This document shows positions 5,171 to 13,093 of a DNA stretch of 64,000 bases, piece after piece (positions within the stretch are counted from its first letter, which is position 1; the number at the start of each line of letters is the position of its first letter). The translations under genes were made by a program, and so were the position numbers. Under the pieces are notes generated by a model. That model was not told the origin of the DNA and did not search any database. It saw only the letters and a list, made by a program, of their open reading frames with translations. Origin of the DNA: Brenneria rubrifaciens (lineage in GTDB: Bacteria; Pseudomonadota; Gammaproteobacteria; Enterobacterales; Enterobacteriaceae); NCBI RefSeq assembly GCF_005484945.1, contig NZ_CP034035.1:3596001-3660000 (forward strand). The letters run 5' to 3'.

Positions 5171-6364
5171 ATGCTGAGAGTTTTGTTGCTGTTTCTGATC
5201 CTGATTGCGGGCGTGGTGCTCGGCCCGATGGTCGCTGGTCATCAAGGCTATGTACTGATTCAAACGCATAGCTACAACATTGAAACCAGCGTTACCGGGC
5301 TGGCGATCATGTTGGTATTGCTGTTCCTTGCCCTGCTGAGCGTTGAATGGGTGATCCGTCGTATTTTTCGTACCGGCGCACGCACACGTGGCTGGTTCCT
5401 CGGCCGTAAACGCAGCCGGGCCAGAAAACAGACCAAAGCCGCGTTGCTCAAACTGGTGGAAGGGGACTATTTGCAGGTCGAGAAATTACTGACGCGCAAT
5501 GCCGATCATGCCGAACAACCGGTGGTCAACTACCTGCTCGCCGCAGAAGCCGCTCAGCAGCGTGGCGACGAATTTCGCACCAAACAGTATCTGGAACGGG
5601 CGGCGGAAATTGCGGACACCAACCAGCTACCGGTGGAGATCACCCGCGTACGCATTCAGTTGGCGCGTCATGAAGACCATGCCGCGCGTCACGGCGTTGA
5701 CCGTCTGCTGGAAACCGCACCGCGTCACCCAGAAGTCTTACGTCTGGCTGAACAGGCATTTCTGCGCACCAGTGCCTATAACGCGCTATTGGATATTCTG
5801 CCTGCCATGCGCAAAATGCCGGCGTACGACGAAGAGCATGTGCTGGCACTGCAACAGCAAGCCTATATCGGCCTGATGAATCAGGCGATGGCGGATGGCG
5901 GCAGTGAGGGCCTGAAACAGTGGTGGAACAGCCAAAGTCGCAAAATCCGCCATGAGGTGCCGTTACAGGCGGTCATGGTCGAACATTTGATTGAATGTGA
6001 CGATCACGATACCGCGCAAAAAATCGTCCTGGATGGTCTTAAACGCCAGTATGACGAACGGCTGGTTCTGCTGATGCCGCGCCTTAAAGCGGGCAACCCG
6101 GAGCAACTGGAAAAAATGCTGCGCCAGAAAATCAAACAGCAGGGCGCGACACCGCTTTTGAATAGTACGCTGGGGCAACTGCTGTTGAAGCACGGCGAAT
6201 GGCAACAGGCCAACGATGCGTTCCGCGCGGCGTTGGAACAACGCCCCGATGCGTATGACTACGCCTGGCGCGCGGATGCGCTCGATCGCCTGCATTTACC
6301 AGAGGAGGCCGCCCAAATGCGGCGCGAAGGGCTATTGCTCACCTTACAGCAGCCGACAACCTAA
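5171..6364 (+). CDS. hemY: HemY, inner-membrane TPR protein of the heme operon
   Basis: HemY is an inner-membrane protein with tetratricopeptide-like helical repeats. It is required for normal late steps of protoheme synthesis, but it is not the flavin protoporphyrinogen oxidase that shares its name. The 397-residue protein begins with two membrane segments (about residues 1-25 and 38-60), then a basic cytoplasmic loop rich in Arg and Lys (RTGARTRGWFLGRKR). Alpha-helical repeats follow to the C-terminus. It is the last gene of hemCDXY, two bases after the hemX stop. Confidence 0.95.
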   Translation: MLRVLLLFLILIAGVVLGPMVAGHQGYVLIQTHSYNIETSVTGLAIMLVLLFLALLSVEWVIRRIFRTGARTRGWFLGRKRSRARKQTKAALLKLVEGDYLQVEKLLTRNADHAEQPVVNYLLAAEAAQQRGDEFRTKQYLERAAEIADTNQLPVEITRVRIQLARHEDHAARHGVDRLLETAPRHPEVLRLAEQAFLRTSAYNALLDILPAMRKMPAYDEEHVLALQQQAYIGLMNQAMADGGSEGLKQWWNSQSRKIRHEVPLQAVMVEHLIECDDHDTAQKIVLDGLKRQYDERLVLLMPRLKAGNPEQLEKMLRQKIKQQGATPLLNSTLGQLLLKHGEWQQANDAFRAALEQRPDAYDYAWRADALDRLHLPEEAAQMRREGLLLTLQQPTT

Positions 6365-6402: not shown

Positions 6403-6434
6403 AAAAAAAAACGCTTACCGATAAACGGTAAGCG
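6403..6434 (-). terminator. Rho-independent terminator, strongest on minus strand
   Basis: A 9-bp perfect stem CGCTTACCG/CGGTAAGCG with loop ATAAA is followed on the minus strand by nine T residues. On the plus strand an A-rich run flanks it, so it may also end hemY transcripts weakly. It faces the GNAT remnant and the operon that ends at 6910. Confidence 0.8.
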
Positions 6435-6473
6435 TCGAAAAAAATCAGGTCTTTAAGACAACAGTATGGTGCC

Positions 6474-6662
6474 TCACTCAACGTAATGTCCGGGAAAATA
6501 ATCCGATGGAGACAATATAACCTTCATCTGGAGTTGGACGATAGGCACCTCAAATTGGCTCTGCGTCATTCCCAGGTTTATGAAGCCGAGGCGAACATAG
6601 AAGGTGGAATGAGCATCTACCTCTGTATTTAAGCACGAACTATGCCAACAAACAAAAATCAA
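6474..6662 (-). pseudogene. GNAT acetyltransferase remnant (C-terminal part)
   Basis: A 62-residue frame contains FYVRLGFINLGMTQSQFEVP, which resembles the last conserved strand-helix-strand of GNAT N-acetyltransferases (the FYxxLGF motif followed by a VPxxQMxK tail). No acetyl-CoA binding motif is found upstream, where the frame is broken, so this looks like the truncated end of a lost gene. It lies in the otherwise AT-rich 545-bp gap between hemY and the lyase operon. Weak evidence: a short match to a very large family. Confidence 0.4.
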
Positions 6663-6840: not shown

Positions 6841-6904
6841 GTCTCCTTTCGGAGACATTAGACGAAGTCAGCCCATGCTGGCGTGCGTTCCGCCGGCATG
6901 GGCT
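6841..6904 (-). terminator. Two hairpins at the end of the lyase/ABC operon
   Basis: GTCTCC-TTTC-GGAGAC (6841-6856) is a perfect small hairpin. A second, larger one pairs AGCCCATGC (from 6870) with GCATGGGCT (to 6904). Neither is followed by a T run on the minus strand, so termination efficiency is uncertain, but they lie just after the last gene of the operon. Confidence 0.45.
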
Positions 6905-6909
6905 GTCCG

Positions 6910-8067
6910 CTAACGGGACGCCAGTTGTTCCAGACTTTGTTTCGCCATCTGGTACAAATAGTGGGCCGTAGGGAACAGGGCGCGATCATCCACGCGGAAC
7001 TTGGGATGATGCAACGCATATGGGCCGCCGGAACCGACCATCATAAAAGTGCCGGGCAACCTCTGCTGGTAGAACGCGAAATCTTCACCAATCGGGCTGG
7101 CTTCGATACGACGCGCTTCAAAGCCTTCTTCATCCGCCACCTGTAGCGCGAAATCAACCCATTCTGCCGTGTTGACCACGGACGGCGGTCCTGCATGCCA
7201 GATAAACTCAATTTCCGCGCCAAAGGTACTGGCAACACCTGCCACGATTTGACGAAAACGCTGTTCAATCAAATCGCGTACCTCCTGATTAAACGTTCTC
7301 ACCGTGCCTTCAAGATAAGCCGTATCAGGAATCACGTTCCAGGTACTGCCGCTATGCACCTGGGTAATCGACACCACGGCATTGTTATCAGAAGGAACGG
7401 TACGACTGATGATACTCTGCACCGATGAAATCAACTGGCCCAGAATAATAATCGGATCGTTGCCCTCATGCGGCTTCGCCGCATGGCAGCCTTTTGCAGC
7501 AATCTTGATTTCAAAACGGTCGACGCCCGCCGTCAGTGCGCCCTCTTTTCCGCCAATCACGCCGACGGGCAGCGTCGGATCATTATGAATACCAAAAATC
7601 GCCGCCGCATTATCCAGCGCGCCAGTCGCAATCACTTCCGGTGCGCCCAGACCGGTTTCTTCAGCGGCCTGGAACAGAATACGTACGGTGCCTTTCAATT
7701 CCGTTTCAATCTTCTTCAGCAAAATCGCGGCGCCCAGCGCGGCGGAAGAGTGGAAATCATGCCCGCAGGCATGCATTACGCCTTTGCTGGTTGAAGTGAA
7801 TTCCACGCCTGATTCTTCTTCGATCGGCAAGGCATCAATATCAGACCGGACGATCACCAGCGGCCCATCCTGTTGCCCGCCCACTTCAGCCACCAAACCC
7901 GTTTTCAGCGGCAGCTCTAGGATACGAATCCCTTCTTTCTCCAGCGCTTCTCTGATCTTGCGGGTGGTTTCAAATTCCTGGTTCGATAATTCAGGGTGCC
8001 GATGCAGATCGTGCCGGAATGCCTGAATAAATTGCGCCAGCGGTTCATGCTGAGATGCTATTTTCAT
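6910..8067 (-). CDS. M20D-family amidohydrolase (YxeP-like N-acyl-cysteine deacetylase)
   Basis: This is a cytoplasmic metal-dependent amidohydrolase of peptidase family M20D, expected to remove an N-acyl (probably N-acetyl) group from an amino acid. Visible motifs are RHPELS (residues 23-28), DIDALPIEEESG (76-87), HACGHDFH (99-106, metal ligands C101 and H103), AAEETG with the general-base glutamates (134-139), and a late LHHPKF. The 385-residue length is typical. It is the last gene of the operon, 63 bases after the ATPase gene. In Bacillus the homologous position is YxeP, which deacetylates S-substituted N-acetylcysteine. The exact substrate here is inferred from context. Confidence 0.85.
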   Translation of the reverse strand: MKIASQHEPLAQFIQAFRHDLHRHPELSNQEFETTRKIREALEKEGIRILELPLKTGLVAEVGGQQDGPLVIVRSDIDALPIEEESGVEFTSTSKGVMHACGHDFHSSAALGAAILLKKIETELKGTVRILFQAAEETGLGAPEVIATGALDNAAAIFGIHNDPTLPVGVIGGKEGALTAGVDRFEIKIAAKGCHAAKPHEGNDPIIILGQLISSVQSIISRTVPSDNNAVVSITQVHSGSTWNVIPDTAYLEGTVRTFNQEVRDLIEQRFRQIVAGVASTFGAEIEFIWHAGPPSVVNTAEWVDFALQVADEEGFEARRIEASPIGEDFAFYQQRLPGTFMMVGSGGPYALHHPKFRVDDRALFPTAHYLYQMAKQSLEQLASR

Positions 8068-8130
8068 TGATGTTTACTCCAACATTGTCCGCCCAATTTA
8101 CGGGCGTGCAGGTGAATCTTTTGTTTTCGG

Positions 8131-8892
8131 TTAAATATCATACTCAACCGGCTCAGGGATCTTAGTTAGCTGACGCAGGAAACGCTGTGTCTGCGGATTA
8201 TCAGAAAAACTGATCACTTTTTCCGCCGGACCTTCTTCAACAATATGACCGTCCGCCATGAAAATGACCCGATCCGCCACTTCCTGAGCGAATTGCATCT
8301 CATGCGTCACGATAACCATCGTCGTGTTGTTTTTCGCCAGTTTCTGAATAACCTGCAACACTTCATGGACGCGTTCCGGGTCCAGTGCCGACGTCGGCTC
8401 GTCAAACAGGATCGCTTTCGGATCGACCGCCAACGCCCGAGCAATACTCACGCGCTGTTGCTGCCCGCCGGATAACGTCACCGGATATTGCGCCGCCTGC
8501 GGCAACAACCCCACCTGTTCCAGCAGCGCAAGACCCATCTCATTCGCCTGTTTTTTAGGCATTTTCTTCACAACAATCAGCGCTTCAGTAATGTTTTCCA
8601 GCGCCGTCTTATTTTTGAACAGATTATAGTTCTGGAACACCATCGCCGTTTGGCGGCGCAGCGCATAGGCCGCCTTAGTTGAATAGTGGCGCGTGTCCAG
8701 ACGTTGTTCGCCGATCTCAATCGTTCCTGACTCCGGTGTTTCCAGCAGGTTCAAACAGCGTAATAGGGTCGATTTACCCGAACCGGATGGCCCAATAATG
8801 GCCACGACTTCGCCTTTGGCGATATCCAGACTGATGTTATTCAGCACCACCTGATCGCCAAAGCTTTTCGTGAGATTCTTTACACTGATCAT
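8131..8892 (-). CDS. Amino-acid ABC transporter ATP-binding protein (YxeO-like)
   Basis: The ATPase of a polar-amino-acid-type importer. Walker A GPSGSGKST lies near residues 34-42, the signature LSGGQQQR near 140, and Walker B AILFDEPTSALDP with the following H-loop EMQFA region. The 253-residue size fits the GlnQ/HisP/YxeO group. Its start is 9 bases downstream of the permease stop, indicating one transcript. It would energise uptake of the substrate captured by the lipoprotein encoded at 9652-10446. Group membership is clear; specificity is inferred. Confidence 0.9.
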   Translation of the reverse strand: MISVKNLTKSFGDQVVLNNISLDIAKGEVVAIIGPSGSGKSTLLRCLNLLETPESGTIEIGEQRLDTRHYSTKAAYALRRQTAMVFQNYNLFKNKTALENITEALIVVKKMPKKQANEMGLALLEQVGLLPQAAQYPVTLSGGQQQRVSIARALAVDPKAILFDEPTSALDPERVHEVLQVIQKLAKNNTTMVIVTHEMQFAQEVADRVIFMADGHIVEEGPAEKVISFSDNPQTQRFLRQLTKIPEPVEYDI

Positions 8893-8901
8893 TTCAGCCC
8901 C

Positions 8902-9573
8902 TTATCGCTGTAGCGAGTGATTTAGTTTCTTTTCCAGCTGCTTTTGCAGCCAGGCATAAACAATGATCACCAGCCAATAAATCAAACCCACAACCAGGAA
9001 GGTTTCAAAGAAACGCAATGACTCTGCGGCAATCATCTTGCCTTCCGCAAACAGTTCGGATACGCCCAGCGCAAATGCCACCGATGTATCTTTAATCAGG
9101 GAAATAAATGTGTTGCCCGTTGCGGGTAAGGCATTGAGCATAGCCTGAGGGAGCACAATCCTGCGGTAAATCTGCGCTTTGTTCATACCAATGGATAAAC
9201 CGGCTTCTGTTTGACCGAAATCCACAGACGCCAGGGCAGCGCGAAATATTTCCGCCATGTAAGCCGATGTCTTCAGACTGAAGCCAATGATCGCCGCCGT
9301 CATCGCATCGAGGTTGGATAGTCCGGGAAAAAGCTGCGGCAAACCAAAATAGATGATAAACAACTGTACCAGAGAAGGAATACCACGGAACAAAGAGATG
9401 TAGAGTTCCACGATTTTCACCACGATGATGTTTTTGGTTTCGCGAACCAGCGCCAATACCAAGCCGATGAGCATAGCAAAAAACATCGAAACCACGGCAA
9501 GCAACAACGTGGTCGGTAAATAAGCTAATACCTGGGGGAATACCTTTAACAGATAGGCGAGATCGATATTCAT
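8902..9573 (-). CDS. Amino-acid ABC transporter permease (YxeN-like)
   Basis: An inner-membrane permease of the HisM/GlnP family with about five membrane helices. It has the EAA-type coupling loop around ALASVDFGQTEAGLSIGMNK that contacts the ATPase. I set the start at MNIDLAYLLKVFPQV (9573), which fits the family N-terminus. In-frame starts at 9597 and 9582 would add eight or three residues, and none has a strong ribosome binding site. A single permease gene implies a homodimeric channel, as in the Bacillus YxeMNO importer. Confidence 0.88.
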   Translation of the reverse strand: MNIDLAYLLKVFPQVLAYLPTTLLLAVVSMFFAMLIGLVLALVRETKNIIVVKIVELYISLFRGIPSLVQLFIIYFGLPQLFPGLSNLDAMTAAIIGFSLKTSAYMAEIFRAALASVDFGQTEAGLSIGMNKAQIYRRIVLPQAMLNALPATGNTFISLIKDTSVAFALGVSELFAEGKMIAAESLRFFETFLVVGLIYWLVIIVYAWLQKQLEKKLNHSLQR

Positions 9574-9651
9574 GAGTGATACCATGGGTACTGCCATCGT
9601 ACGGTGGACACCGCGCCGACGGCATTAAGATTGTCGTGAGACTGCCACGAA

Positions 9652-10446
9652 TTACTGAGCAGAAGGGGGCGTCGTGATATCTTCACCGAAATATTTAATC
9701 GCCAGATCTTTCAAACGCCCGTCAGCACGCATTTTATCCAGCTCTTCATCAAACTGTTTACGCAGTGCATCACCCTTCTCGTTTTTATGGAACGGGAAAC
9801 TGACCTCTTCCACCACCAGCGAATTACCAACCAACTTGAATGGCAGGTTACGCTTGTTAATTTCCGCCAGCAGAATCGGACGGGAGTTCACGTAGCCCTC
9901 GACACGTTTGGACAGGGCATCGTTCATTGCGCCATCGCGTGTCTCATAAGTACGGATGTTCACGCTGCCGTCAGGGAACGCTTTCTTTAAATTGTTGATG
10001 TGGTTAGAGCCCAGCACACCGGCGACCGTTTTTCCTTTCAGATCGTCCAGCGAGTTGATATCGTTATTATCTTTGTGGGTTACAATCTGGCTGCCGTAGA
10101 AGCTGTAAGGGCGTGCGAAATTATACTTCTCCTGACGGACTGGCGTAATGGCCACCACATTGGCGACGGTATCCAGTTTACCCGCCTCCAATTGCCCCAT
10201 AAGGCCGCTAAAATCAGCCGTGACCCATTCAACTTTATAGTTTAAATCCTTAGCGATGGTTTCCGTGATCTCAACGTCAAAACCGACCAGTTTATTATCT
10301 TGCTTAAAACCGCTGGGATAGCTTTGGCCCGTTGACCCCACTTTCAACACTTTCTCACCCTGAGTCGTATCCTGAGAATCACAGCCTGCTACAAGAAAGG
10401 CAGTCGTCAGCGCTAAAACAGACAAAGTTAATTTTTTCATTATCAT
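9652..10446 (-). CDS. Amino-acid ABC transporter substrate-binding lipoprotein (YxeM-like)
   Basis: A periplasmic solute-binding protein of SBP family 3, tethered by a lipid. The signal peptide ends in the lipobox LVAGC, and the mature part shows the family pattern GFDVEITETIAKDL and SGLMGQLEAGKLD. ATG 10446 (MIMKKLTLSV) is preferred because AGAGG lies seven bases upstream; the frame extends to 10482 but the upstream ATGs are poorly placed. The gap to the permease (78 bases) is the largest inside the importer block. Lipid anchoring is unusual for Gram-negative binding proteins of this type, and the lipoprotein resembles Gram-positive YxeM. The ligand is unknown from sequence. Confidence 0.87.
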   Translation of the reverse strand: MIMKKLTLSVLALTTAFLVAGCDSQDTTQGEKVLKVGSTGQSYPSGFKQDNKLVGFDVEITETIAKDLNYKVEWVTADFSGLMGQLEAGKLDTVANVVAITPVRQEKYNFARPYSFYGSQIVTHKDNNDINSLDDLKGKTVAGVLGSNHINNLKKAFPDGSVNIRTYETRDGAMNDALSKRVEGYVNSRPILLAEINKRNLPFKLVGNSLVVEEVSFPFHKNEKGDALRKQFDEELDKMRADGRLKDLAIKYFGEDITTPPSAQ

Positions 10447-10457
10447 TTTCATGCCTC

Positions 10458-10985
10458 TTATTTTAAATTTCTTTTTTTCCACTGGTCATATAATGGGTCA
10501 TCAAGGATTTTTTGCATATAAATCGTCAGGTGCCCTTTCCCCAAATTGGCTTGCCCGACTTCCCTGAAACCATAATGCTTATACATCTCAATCAGCCAAG
10601 GATGGCTTTGCGCCGTCCCTAATGACACTGCGGGAGCCTTAAGCTGACCAATTAAAATATTCTGCTCAAGCCAGGCCATCATTTGCTTGCCCAGTCCCTG
10701 CTTTTTATAATCGGGATGCGTGGCAAACCATCCGAGATGCGGCAACCCATAAGGGCCGGGCTCCGGTCCCCAGGGATAACGGATAGTGAATGAGGACACC
10801 ATAATGCCGTCCTTCTCCATCACGTACACGCCGTGAGATGAAATGTGTCTGCGAACCATGTCAATGTCCGCATGCGCCGCAGAAAAATTGATGCCTAGCT
10901 GACGTATCGGCTCAAAAGCGGACAACGCCAACGCCAGGAATGATTCATCATCCTCCAGCATAGCCTGGCGAAATACAATACTCAT
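10458..10985 (-). CDS. GNAT-family N-acetyltransferase (YxeL-like)
   Basis: A 175-residue GNAT acetyltransferase. It shows the acetyl-CoA loop around HPDYKKQGLGKQMM and a C-terminal EMYKHYGFREVG that corresponds to the usual FYxxxGF element. ATG 10985 (MSIVFRQAMLED) has AAAGGTG as ribosome binding site; the frame is open further upstream into the lyase gene but has no reason to start there. It follows the lyase stop by 10 bases and precedes the lipoprotein start by 11. In the Bacillus operon YxeL N-acetylates S-(2-succino)cysteine, and the YxeP-type deacetylase here fits an acetylation/deacetylation pair. The substrate is inferred. Confidence 0.82.
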   Translation of the reverse strand: MSIVFRQAMLEDDESFLALALSAFEPIRQLGINFSAAHADIDMVRRHISSHGVYVMEKDGIMVSSFTIRYPWGPEPGPYGLPHLGWFATHPDYKKQGLGKQMMAWLEQNILIGQLKAPAVSLGTAQSHPWLIEMYKHYGFREVGQANLGKGHLTIYMQKILDDPLYDQWKKRNLK

Positions 10986-10995
10986 GATTTCACCT

Positions 10996-12360
10996 TTACG
11001 CAGGCAGCAGACCTGAGTTATTCGCGTAGCGTATAACATCATCTACTTTCTGAGGCGCGCTGCCCAGATAGTTAGCCGGGTTCAGCCATTCATCCAACTC
11101 AGCCGATGTCAGTTGAGCAGATAATACAGGGTGTTCCAGGAGGACAGATTTGAATGACTGGTTCTTCTCGAACGCCCGCATAGCGCATTCATAAACCAGA
11201 TGATGTGCCGTCTGTTTGCCAAGACGCGTGCCAATCTCAAACATCACCTTCTCGGATAGCAGCAACCCGTTTTGCAATTCCAGATTCGCCAACATCTGTT
11301 TTTCATTCACCGACATACCACGCAGAATACCCAACGCATTCTGGAGTTGTGCGGACAGATAGATGTTGATTTCCGGCAATGCGATCCACTCGGCACGCCA
11401 GCTCATGGCGTCACGCTCATGTTCCACTTTCATGGACTCATGGATGAGCGCGGCGCTTTTAAACACCGGCGCGGTCAGGCTGGCCAGCCCTTCCAGCGCG
11501 GCCGGGTTGCGTTTGTGCGGCATGGTCGTGGACCCGATTTTTCCTTCGGAAAAAGGTTCTTCGATCTCGTTAATTTCGGTACGCATCAGGTTATAAAGCT
11601 CGTTGCCGATCTTACCCAGCGTACCGCTGATAAGCACAACAATGGAAGCATACTCGGAGAAACGGTCGCGGGCGGACTGCCAGCCAATATTTGGCGTATT
11701 CAGACCCAGCTTATCCAGCGTCAGGCGCTCAATTTCAGGGCCTTTTTCACCAAAAGAGGCATAGGTTCCGATAGCGCCGTTGATGTTACCAACCAGTACA
11801 CGCTGTTTAATTTCGCTCAGACGTTCAAGATGACGGACAAACTCATCCAGCCAGACCGCCAGTTTAAAACCAAACGTGGTCGGCAGCGCTTGCATGCCGT
11901 GAGTCCGTCCGGTCATAAGTGTGTATTGGTGTTTCTTCGACAGGCGTTTTAATTCAACAGCCAGCAGTTGAGTATCACGGAAAACAATGTCAAAAGACTG
12001 CTTTAATTGCAGAACGGTAGCGGTATCGACAATGTCCTGCGTTGTTACGCCATAATGGATAAATTCGCCCGCCGCGCCACACTGCTTCTGAATCGCGGTA
12101 ATCGTCGGCATCAAGGAATGCTTCATGCGGGCGGCATCTTTGGCGATATCTTCCACATTCAGCGCGCCGGCATCCGCTTTTTCAGCAATGGTGTTCGCCG
12201 CTTCTTGCGGGATAATACCGAGCTCTCCTTCGGCCAGCGCCAAAGCAACTTCCACTTCAACCTGTTTTGTCAGGCGGTTCTGCTCTGACCACACGTCCCG
12301 CATTTCAGGCGTGCCAAAATTATTCCCTATAAGAAGAAAATCAATAAGATGTGATGCCAT
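10996..12360 (-). CDS. Aspartase/fumarase-superfamily lyase (candidate S-(2-succino)cysteine lyase)
   Basis: A 454-residue member of the superfamily that releases fumarate (or forms a lactone) by beta-elimination. Three conserved regions are present: FIHYGVTTQD (100-109), MTGRTHGMQ (149-157) and the signature GSTTMPHKRNP (276-286), whose loop holds the catalytic serine/threonine region. Overall it resembles PurB, but RAEWIALPE after the signature is more like carboxymuconate cycloisomerase. It is not next to the usual purB partner hflD. As first gene of an operon with acetyltransferase, amino-acid importer and deacetylase, a salvage lyase is more likely than purine synthesis. Best candidate: cleavage of S-(2-succino)cysteine to cysteine and fumarate. 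GAG seven bases before the ATG serves as ribosome binding site. Confidence 0.8.
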   Translation of the reverse strand: MASHLIDFLLIGNNFGTPEMRDVWSEQNRLTKQVEVEVALALAEGELGIIPQEAANTIAEKADAGALNVEDIAKDAARMKHSLMPTITAIQKQCGAAGEFIHYGVTTQDIVDTATVLQLKQSFDIVFRDTQLLAVELKRLSKKHQYTLMTGRTHGMQALPTTFGFKLAVWLDEFVRHLERLSEIKQRVLVGNINGAIGTYASFGEKGPEIERLTLDKLGLNTPNIGWQSARDRFSEYASIVVLISGTLGKIGNELYNLMRTEINEIEEPFSEGKIGSTTMPHKRNPAALEGLASLTAPVFKSAALIHESMKVEHERDAMSWRAEWIALPEINIYLSAQLQNALGILRGMSVNEKQMLANLELQNGLLLSEKVMFEIGTRLGKQTAHHLVYECAMRAFEKNQSFKSVLLEHPVLSAQLTSAELDEWLNPANYLGSAPQKVDDVIRYANNSGLLPA

Positions 12361-12446: not shown

Positions 12447-12476
12447 CTTATACCTTCGGGATCTATCATAGATCAA
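12447..12476 (-). promoter_or_regulatory. Candidate promoter with palindromic operator for the lyase operon
   Basis: On the minus strand TTGATC (12471-12476) and TATAAG (12447-12452) are 18 bases apart, giving a plausible sigma-70 promoter with a leader of about 80 bases before the lyase ATG. A 15-bp perfect palindrome GATCTATCATAGATC (12460-12474) covers the -35 box and most of the spacer, a position typical of a repressor site. No regulator gene is adjacent. Confidence 0.5.
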
Positions 12477-12574
12477 AAAGTTTTATTAAAAGTTATGATG
12501 ATGGAAACCCCACCACGCCTTGAATGGTTTAGCGGCAGGGCAATAGCGCGGTGACGTCAAAACCGATGCAGACG

Positions 12575-12613: not shown

Positions 12614-12690
12614 TGGTCGGCGAGAGAGGATTCGAACCTCCGACCCACTGGTCCCAAACCAGTTGCGCTACCAAGCTGCGCTACTCGCCG
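12614..12690 (-). tRNA. proM: tRNA-Pro (anticodon TGG)
   Basis: A complete 77-base tRNA gene with encoded CCA. The anticodon loop reads TTTGGGA within CTGG...CCAG, so the anticodon is TGG, and the T-arm has GGTTCGAATCC. It is last of four tRNAs in the order Arg-His-Leu-Pro, the same as argX-hisR-leuT-proM of E. coli. Confidence 0.97.
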
Positions 12691-12737
12691 AATGCACTGC
12701 TTTATTGCTTAAGCATCACGGATGCTTGTCGTCTGTG

Positions 12738-12824
12738 TGGTGCGAAGAGAGGGACTTGAACCCTCACGTCCGTTAAGACACTAACACCTGAAGCTAGCGC
12801 GTCTACCAATTCCGCCACCTTCGC
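12738..12824 (-). tRNA. leuT: tRNA-Leu (anticodon CAG)
   Basis: An 87-base class II tRNA with a long variable arm and encoded CCA. The anticodon loop TTCAGGT gives CAG. It lies 47 bases upstream of tRNA-Pro in the same transcript. Confidence 0.97.
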
Positions 12825-12852
12825 ATAACCCTATATCACAAACGCTTCAGTC

Positions 12853-12928
12853 TGGGGTGGCTAATGGGACTCGAACCCACGACAACTGGAATCACAATCC
12901 AGGGCTCTACCAACTGAGCTATAGCCAC
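12853..12928 (-). tRNA. hisR: tRNA-His (anticodon GTG)
   Basis: A 76-base tRNA with encoded CCA. The anticodon loop TTGTGAT gives GTG, and the acceptor starts GTGGCTATAGC as in enterobacterial hisR. Confidence 0.97.
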
Positions 12929-13016
12929 CATAAACCACGCTGACTTTTACTGCTTTATTACGCGGTACTTACTTTACGGGGTAAATGTACCACCGCAGCT
13001 CTTGCACACAACTTAG

Positions 13017-13093
<77 letters not shown>

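Follow-up and report, generated by a model that had tools for sequence, protein, structure and literature searches.

A probable S-(2-succino) lyase variant of the yxe operon in Brenneria rubrifaciens

The six-gene block and its surroundings

We analysed a stretch of 64,000 nucleotides from Brenneria rubrifaciens (contig NZ_CP034035.1, positions 3,596,001 to 3,660,000), referred to as the window, and all positions below are counted within it. The minus strand carries six intact, co-directional genes between positions 6910 and 12360, as judged from the ORF listing and Pfam. Read from 5' to 3', they encode a lyase, a GNAT acetyltransferase, a solute-binding lipoprotein, a permease, an ATPase and an M20 amidohydrolase. 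Pfam confirmed the family of all six proteins, which bears out the block as the first-pass annotation had drawn it. NCBIfam gave matches for five of the six; the GNAT protein found no match in NCBIfam and no PDB relative at an E-value of 0.001.

The first gene (10996-12360, minus strand) encodes a protein of 454 residues belonging to the lyase class I or fumarase/aspartase superfamily (PF00206, 157.9 bits), a probable orthologue of S-(2-succino) lyase (2SL). It is followed on the same strand by the GNAT N-acetyltransferase (10458-10985; 175 residues), the counterpart of YxeL/ScmL, for which the longest ORF begins at 11042 within the lyase gene and a likely ATG was picked by eye. The family 3 solute-binding lipoprotein, corresponding to YxeM (9652-10452, minus strand), comprises 266 residues from its likely ATG. 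Its longest ORF runs from 10482, and both the likely start at 10452 and an LVAGC lipobox were read from the sequence. Next come a polar amino acid type ABC permease corresponding to YxeN (8902-9597, minus strand; the exact start is unsure) and an ABC transporter ATPase corresponding to YxeO (8131-8892, minus strand). The best NCBIfam model for the ATPase is that of the L-cystine protein TcyN, with a score of 315.1 bits that lies below the cut-off of 406. The last gene (6910-8067, minus strand) encodes an M20 family amidohydrolase, the counterpart of YxeP/ScmP, which is predicted to be an N-acetylcysteine deacetylase. Among solved structures in the PDB it comes closest to B. subtilis YxeP (1YSJ), with 399 bits over residues 17-380, against 207 for the next best entry. 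With the likely starts of the GNAT and binding-protein genes, the intergenic gaps from lyase to amidohydrolase measure 10, 5, 54, 9 and 63 bp. A hairpin of -32.6 kcal/mol (RNA fold) extends from the amidohydrolase stop codon (6861-6912, minus strand) and is a possible terminator of the operon; it has no clear T run and does not appear in the list of the terminator scan.

The operon fills the gap between hemY and a tRNA cluster, where the first-pass annotation had located it: hemY (HemY_N) stops at 6364, and the operon is preceded by a set of four tRNA genes, for Arg, His, Leu and Pro, at 12614-13093. Between hemY and the operon lies the gene of the small RNA GlmZ (RF00083, 175.3 bits; 6405-6620, minus strand), which closes with a terminator-like hairpin (6436-6410). 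All 22 loci from Brenneria, Pectobacterium, Samsonia, Symbiopectobacterium and Dickeya (L001-L019, L044, L048 and L054) carry the same four tRNA genes ahead of the lyase, and in 13 of them the fetched stretch also includes hemY downstream.

Identity of the lyase

A 2-succino lyase of the aspartase/fumarase superfamily, which the first-pass annotation had mentioned, is indeed in print. Hillmann et al. 2022 describe S-(2-succino) lyase as a replacement of yxeK in yxe loci, where it is part of 27 of 102 loci and occurs together with yxeK just three times (PMC9706529). Two such enzymes, one each from E. italicus DSM 15952 and from D. dadantii DSM 18020, were able to complement a yxeK mutant of B. 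subtilis, and both converted N-acetyl-S-(2-succino)cysteine (N-acetyl-2SC) to fumarate and N-acetylcysteine (PMC9706529). The B. subtilis yxe operon itself comprises YxeL, the YxeMNO transporter and YxeP, next to the monooxygenase (PMC9706529).

The operon of E. italicus DSM 15952 (L047) contains counterparts of all six window genes in the same order and on one strand, with identities of 63% for the lyase, 38% for GNAT, 68% for the binding protein, 64% for the permease, 65% for the ATPase and 54% for the amidohydrolase. Together with the closeness of the amidohydrolase to YxeP, this shared order supports the assignment of the last five genes as YxeL-M-N-O-P, which lie contiguously in the window. 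The L-M-N-O part of this match is based on the E. italicus operon and PMC9706529, YxeP being the one B. subtilis protein compared directly.

The window lyase aligns to that of E. italicus over 452 residues with no gaps (286 identical), and its signature loop GSTTMPHKRNP aligns with GSSTMPHKRNP. Identity rises to 96% for the lyases of Brenneria izbisi and B. salicis and reaches 87% for Dickeya oryzae, 86% for D. undicola and 87% (393/452) for a cluster labelled D. zeae; D. dadantii is represented in these comparisons by its congeners and not by its own sequence, E0SKP1. In a tree of 39 rows, made up of 37 chosen fetched lyases, the window lyase and the PurB of this genome as root, the yxe-type lyases, those of the window and of E. 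italicus among them, form one group of 28 rows with a bootstrap of 91 and an SH-aLRT of 99, on a branch that is not starred by the rule of the tool and in a tree with long-branch warnings, above all for PurB. Three groups of paralogues with 39-44% identity stand outside. This tree replaced an earlier 77-row tree whose outgroup combined fumarase, ArgH and PurB; there, end branches attained a length of 10 and the outgroup did not fall on one side of any branch.

Thus, the window lyase groups with a characterised 2SL and apart from the paralogues, and within the yxe locus it sits in the place of yxeK. YxeK is presumably a member of TIGR03860. A search with this model recovered the B. subtilis control and found no match in the genome of the window, as expected if the lyase replaces YxeK. 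Judging from its position, the missing TIGR03860 match and the identity to the E. italicus enzyme, the lyase appears to take the role of YxeK, as had been proposed at first reading. From these sequence comparisons, we consider it highly probable that the six-gene block represents a yxe (scm) operon of the 2SL type, acting on S-(2-succino)cysteine (2SC).

The names given to its relatives suggest another identity. Sources label them adenylosuccinate lyase or 3-carboxy-cis,cis-muconate cycloisomerase, so that the protein might be a PurB or PcaB whose place beside transporter genes is incidental. In line with this, the broad purB model TIGR00928 scores 378.4 bits against the window lyase, above its cut-off of 326.2, and NF006500 and the PcaB models also match, though below their cut-offs (393.8, 275.7 and 189 bits for the PcaB models, against 595, 355.75 and 371). 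However, the genome encodes a separate PurB (L063) that scores 758.9 bits with PRK09285 against a cut-off of 446, and the same model gives the window lyase 97.5 bits. The first-pass annotation had named the lack of a second purB as a finding against its reading; the gene is present, and the window lyase is just 23% identical to its product. An incidental neighbourhood also fits poorly with the 57 of 58 loci that have a GNAT gene following the lyase, and a PurB or PcaB identity with the high similarity to the lyase of the very E. italicus strain whose 2SL was assayed. As PurB serves as outgroup, the 39-row tree itself is no test of PurB membership. Both memberships were rejected on the PRK09285 and PcaB cut-offs and on the separate PurB, the TIGR00928 pass counting against the rejection in the case of PurB. 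We read the names and this pass as superfamily-level labels and regard a PurB or PcaB identity as extremely improbable. Membership in XcbD, a 3-sulfopropionylcysteine synthase, was likewise rejected (445.7 bits against a cut-off of 600). Lyase_1 has six matches in the single-contig genome of 4,028,093 bases, of which the window lyase is one.

Gene order among relatives and the predicted pathway

Fifty-eight loci were fetched by similarity to the window lyase, a set weighted to close kin. In all of these loci except L056, a 33% identical outlier, a GNAT match begins no more than 1.7 kb downstream of where the lyase starts. The order lyase-L-M-N-O-P is complete in 34 loci; 13 others have all components except P, five have lyase, L and P, and six show none of these arrangements. 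This grouping of genes exceeds chance, as judged by the frequency of GNAT and of the full order.

The layouts vary between lineages. Five loci (L023, L024, L025, L041 and L058, from two Rahnella, Klebsiella michiganensis, Winslowiella and Serratia rubidaea) carry only lyase, GNAT and amidohydrolase; further along, they have a different ABC transporter that points in the opposite direction. In L023 an MmgE/PrpD-family gene lies between these genes and that transporter, and in L058 the lyase match is broken. Gilliamella loci (L026-L031, L038, L040 and L051) combine lyase, GNAT and transporter, and their fetched stretches show no match for an amidohydrolase; in L029 an MmgE/PrpD-family gene follows on the other strand.

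Among 149 genomes drawn from the same family, a sample that includes the genome of the window, 21 contain a lyase match at an E-value of 1e-100. Nine of these have a lyase of at least 70% identity, and the other 12 have 39-44% identical paralogues only, which makes 2SL sporadic across the wider family. The paralogues were not counted as 2SL. A scan of ten neighbour proteins in the loci L088-L091 found no yxe-type component among those with a family match. Seven of the ten matched a family at an E-value of 1e-30, namely two DASS anion symporters, argininosuccinate synthase, cystathionine beta-lyase, a branched-chain amino acid carrier, a LacI-type regulator and a hydrogenase small subunit; the other three had no family match at this threshold. 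In L088, from the genus of the window, and in L091, a 41% identical paralogue lies directly beside the gene of a DASS-family anion symporter, and in L088 an argininosuccinate synthase gene is nearby. Perhaps this paralogue is a lyase for another succino compound.

For the pathway of the window operon, gene content, order and homology are observed, and each reaction as well as the transported substrate is carried over from characterised relatives. The YxeMNO-type ABC transporter would import 2SC or a close derivative, which the GNAT enzyme would N-acetylate. The lyase would then strip the succino group by beta-elimination, yielding fumarate and N-acetylcysteine, and the M20 amidohydrolase would deacetylate the latter to cysteine. 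As the equilibrium of the lyase would lie on the substrate side, the amidohydrolase may pull the lyase step forward. The first-pass annotation had suggested that the lyase releases cysteine and fumarate directly. The catalytic efficiency with N-acetyl-2SC is higher than that with 2SC by about 320-fold for the E. italicus enzyme and about 60-fold for that of D. dadantii (PMC9706529). Given this preference of the published enzymes for the N-acetylated substrate, the main products of the window lyase are most likely fumarate and N-acetylcysteine rather than free cysteine; direct release would be equivalent to the minor activity that the published enzymes show on 2SC.

The same operon logic might also serve a different natural substrate, another S-succino or S-carboxyalkyl thioether that perhaps comes from plant tissue. 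Several small thiols serve in the reactions of 2SL enzymes (PMC9706529), XcbD is the second-best NCBIfam match of the lyase, albeit below its cut-off, and some lineages keep the different, oppositely directed transporter beside the lyase-GNAT pair. Yet the E. italicus operon encodes equivalents of the transporter, acetyltransferase and amidohydrolase, arranged in the same order. The amidohydrolase is also similar to YxeP, and Zmuda et al. 2025 characterised B. subtilis YxeP (ScmP) as a deacetylase specific for N-acetylcysteine (PMC12757645). We therefore deem another substrate very unlikely and retain 2SC as the predicted one.

The upstream inverted repeat and comparison with known systems

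Between tRNA-Pro and the lyase lies an inverted repeat with the core GATCTA-N3-TAGATC (12454-12480, minus strand). It overlaps the -35-like hexamer of the presumed lyase promoter, TTGATC-18-TATAAG, which was read by eye. A sigma-70 scan listed no lyase promoter and found eight promoters against 7.3 expected, which is chance level; the scan requires a T as the final base, which TTGATC-18-TATAAG lacks.

Without any mismatch, the core occurs in the window and in 16 of the 22 loci that share the four tRNA genes. One further locus has a single mismatch, three (Symbiopectobacterium) have two, and the two Dickeya loci have three or four. The remaining 31 loci examined come no closer to the core than four or five mismatches. 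When the letters of the 22 upstream regions were shuffled, 4,400 times in all, no shuffle produced a perfect core and 0.05% produced one with at most one mismatch. As this shuffling takes no account of kinship and the loci are close relatives, these values speak for conservation and not for independent recurrence. Pairing of the arms is complete (12 of 12 positions) in B. izbisi, B. roseae and B. salicis, the last of which shows one paired change, and covers nine of 12 positions in the window. In the whole genome, the core occurs perfectly at one place, upstream of the lyase, and with one mismatch at two places, and a control with the reversed pattern found none; by arithmetic for equal base frequencies and 4.03 Mb, one would expect about nine places with no more than one mismatch.

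We consider the inverted repeat a candidate operator. In Brenneria, Pectobacterium and Samsonia, a dedicated regulator might bind the repeat over the lyase promoter and sense 2SC, N-acetyl-2SC or fumarate, a speculative proposal that we hold to be rather unlikely. To our knowledge, no sensor of succination damage has been described earlier, and such a regulator would, if real, be the first. The repeat is the only new lead from this locus.

In other respects the operon resembles systems that are already known. The Dickeya congeners D. oryzae and D. undicola have the complete gene order with the same four tRNA genes ahead and hemY downstream on the other strand, as in the window; unlike in Brenneria, the upstream repeat is not kept, with two and four of 12 arm positions pairing. 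E. italicus differs from the window by an MmgE/PrpD-family gene directly upstream of the lyase, which we take to be of the YxeQ type. The window lacks an adjacent one, and a single MmgE/PrpD match lies elsewhere in its genome. Compared to the B. subtilis yxe operon, the oxygen-requiring monooxygenase YxeK, which gives oxaloacetate, is replaced by a lyase that would give fumarate.

Brenneria and Pectobacterium are not named in the main text of PMC9706529. Since one of the two characterised enzymes comes from D. dadantii, the literature in effect already covers the lineage, and as Dickeya lyases of 86-87% identity lie in the same operon, the case of the window is not new. The locus extends the known system by a taxon, a correction concerning the N-acetylated substrate and a candidate operator; it brings no new chemistry. 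It links a published cysteine-repair pathway to a gene order that the majority of the examined loci from related soft-rot enterobacteria retain, and to a lyase whose close relatives carry the name adenylosuccinate lyase in databases. Taken together, the system is already known, and the window lyase is an ordinary close relative of the characterised 2SLs.
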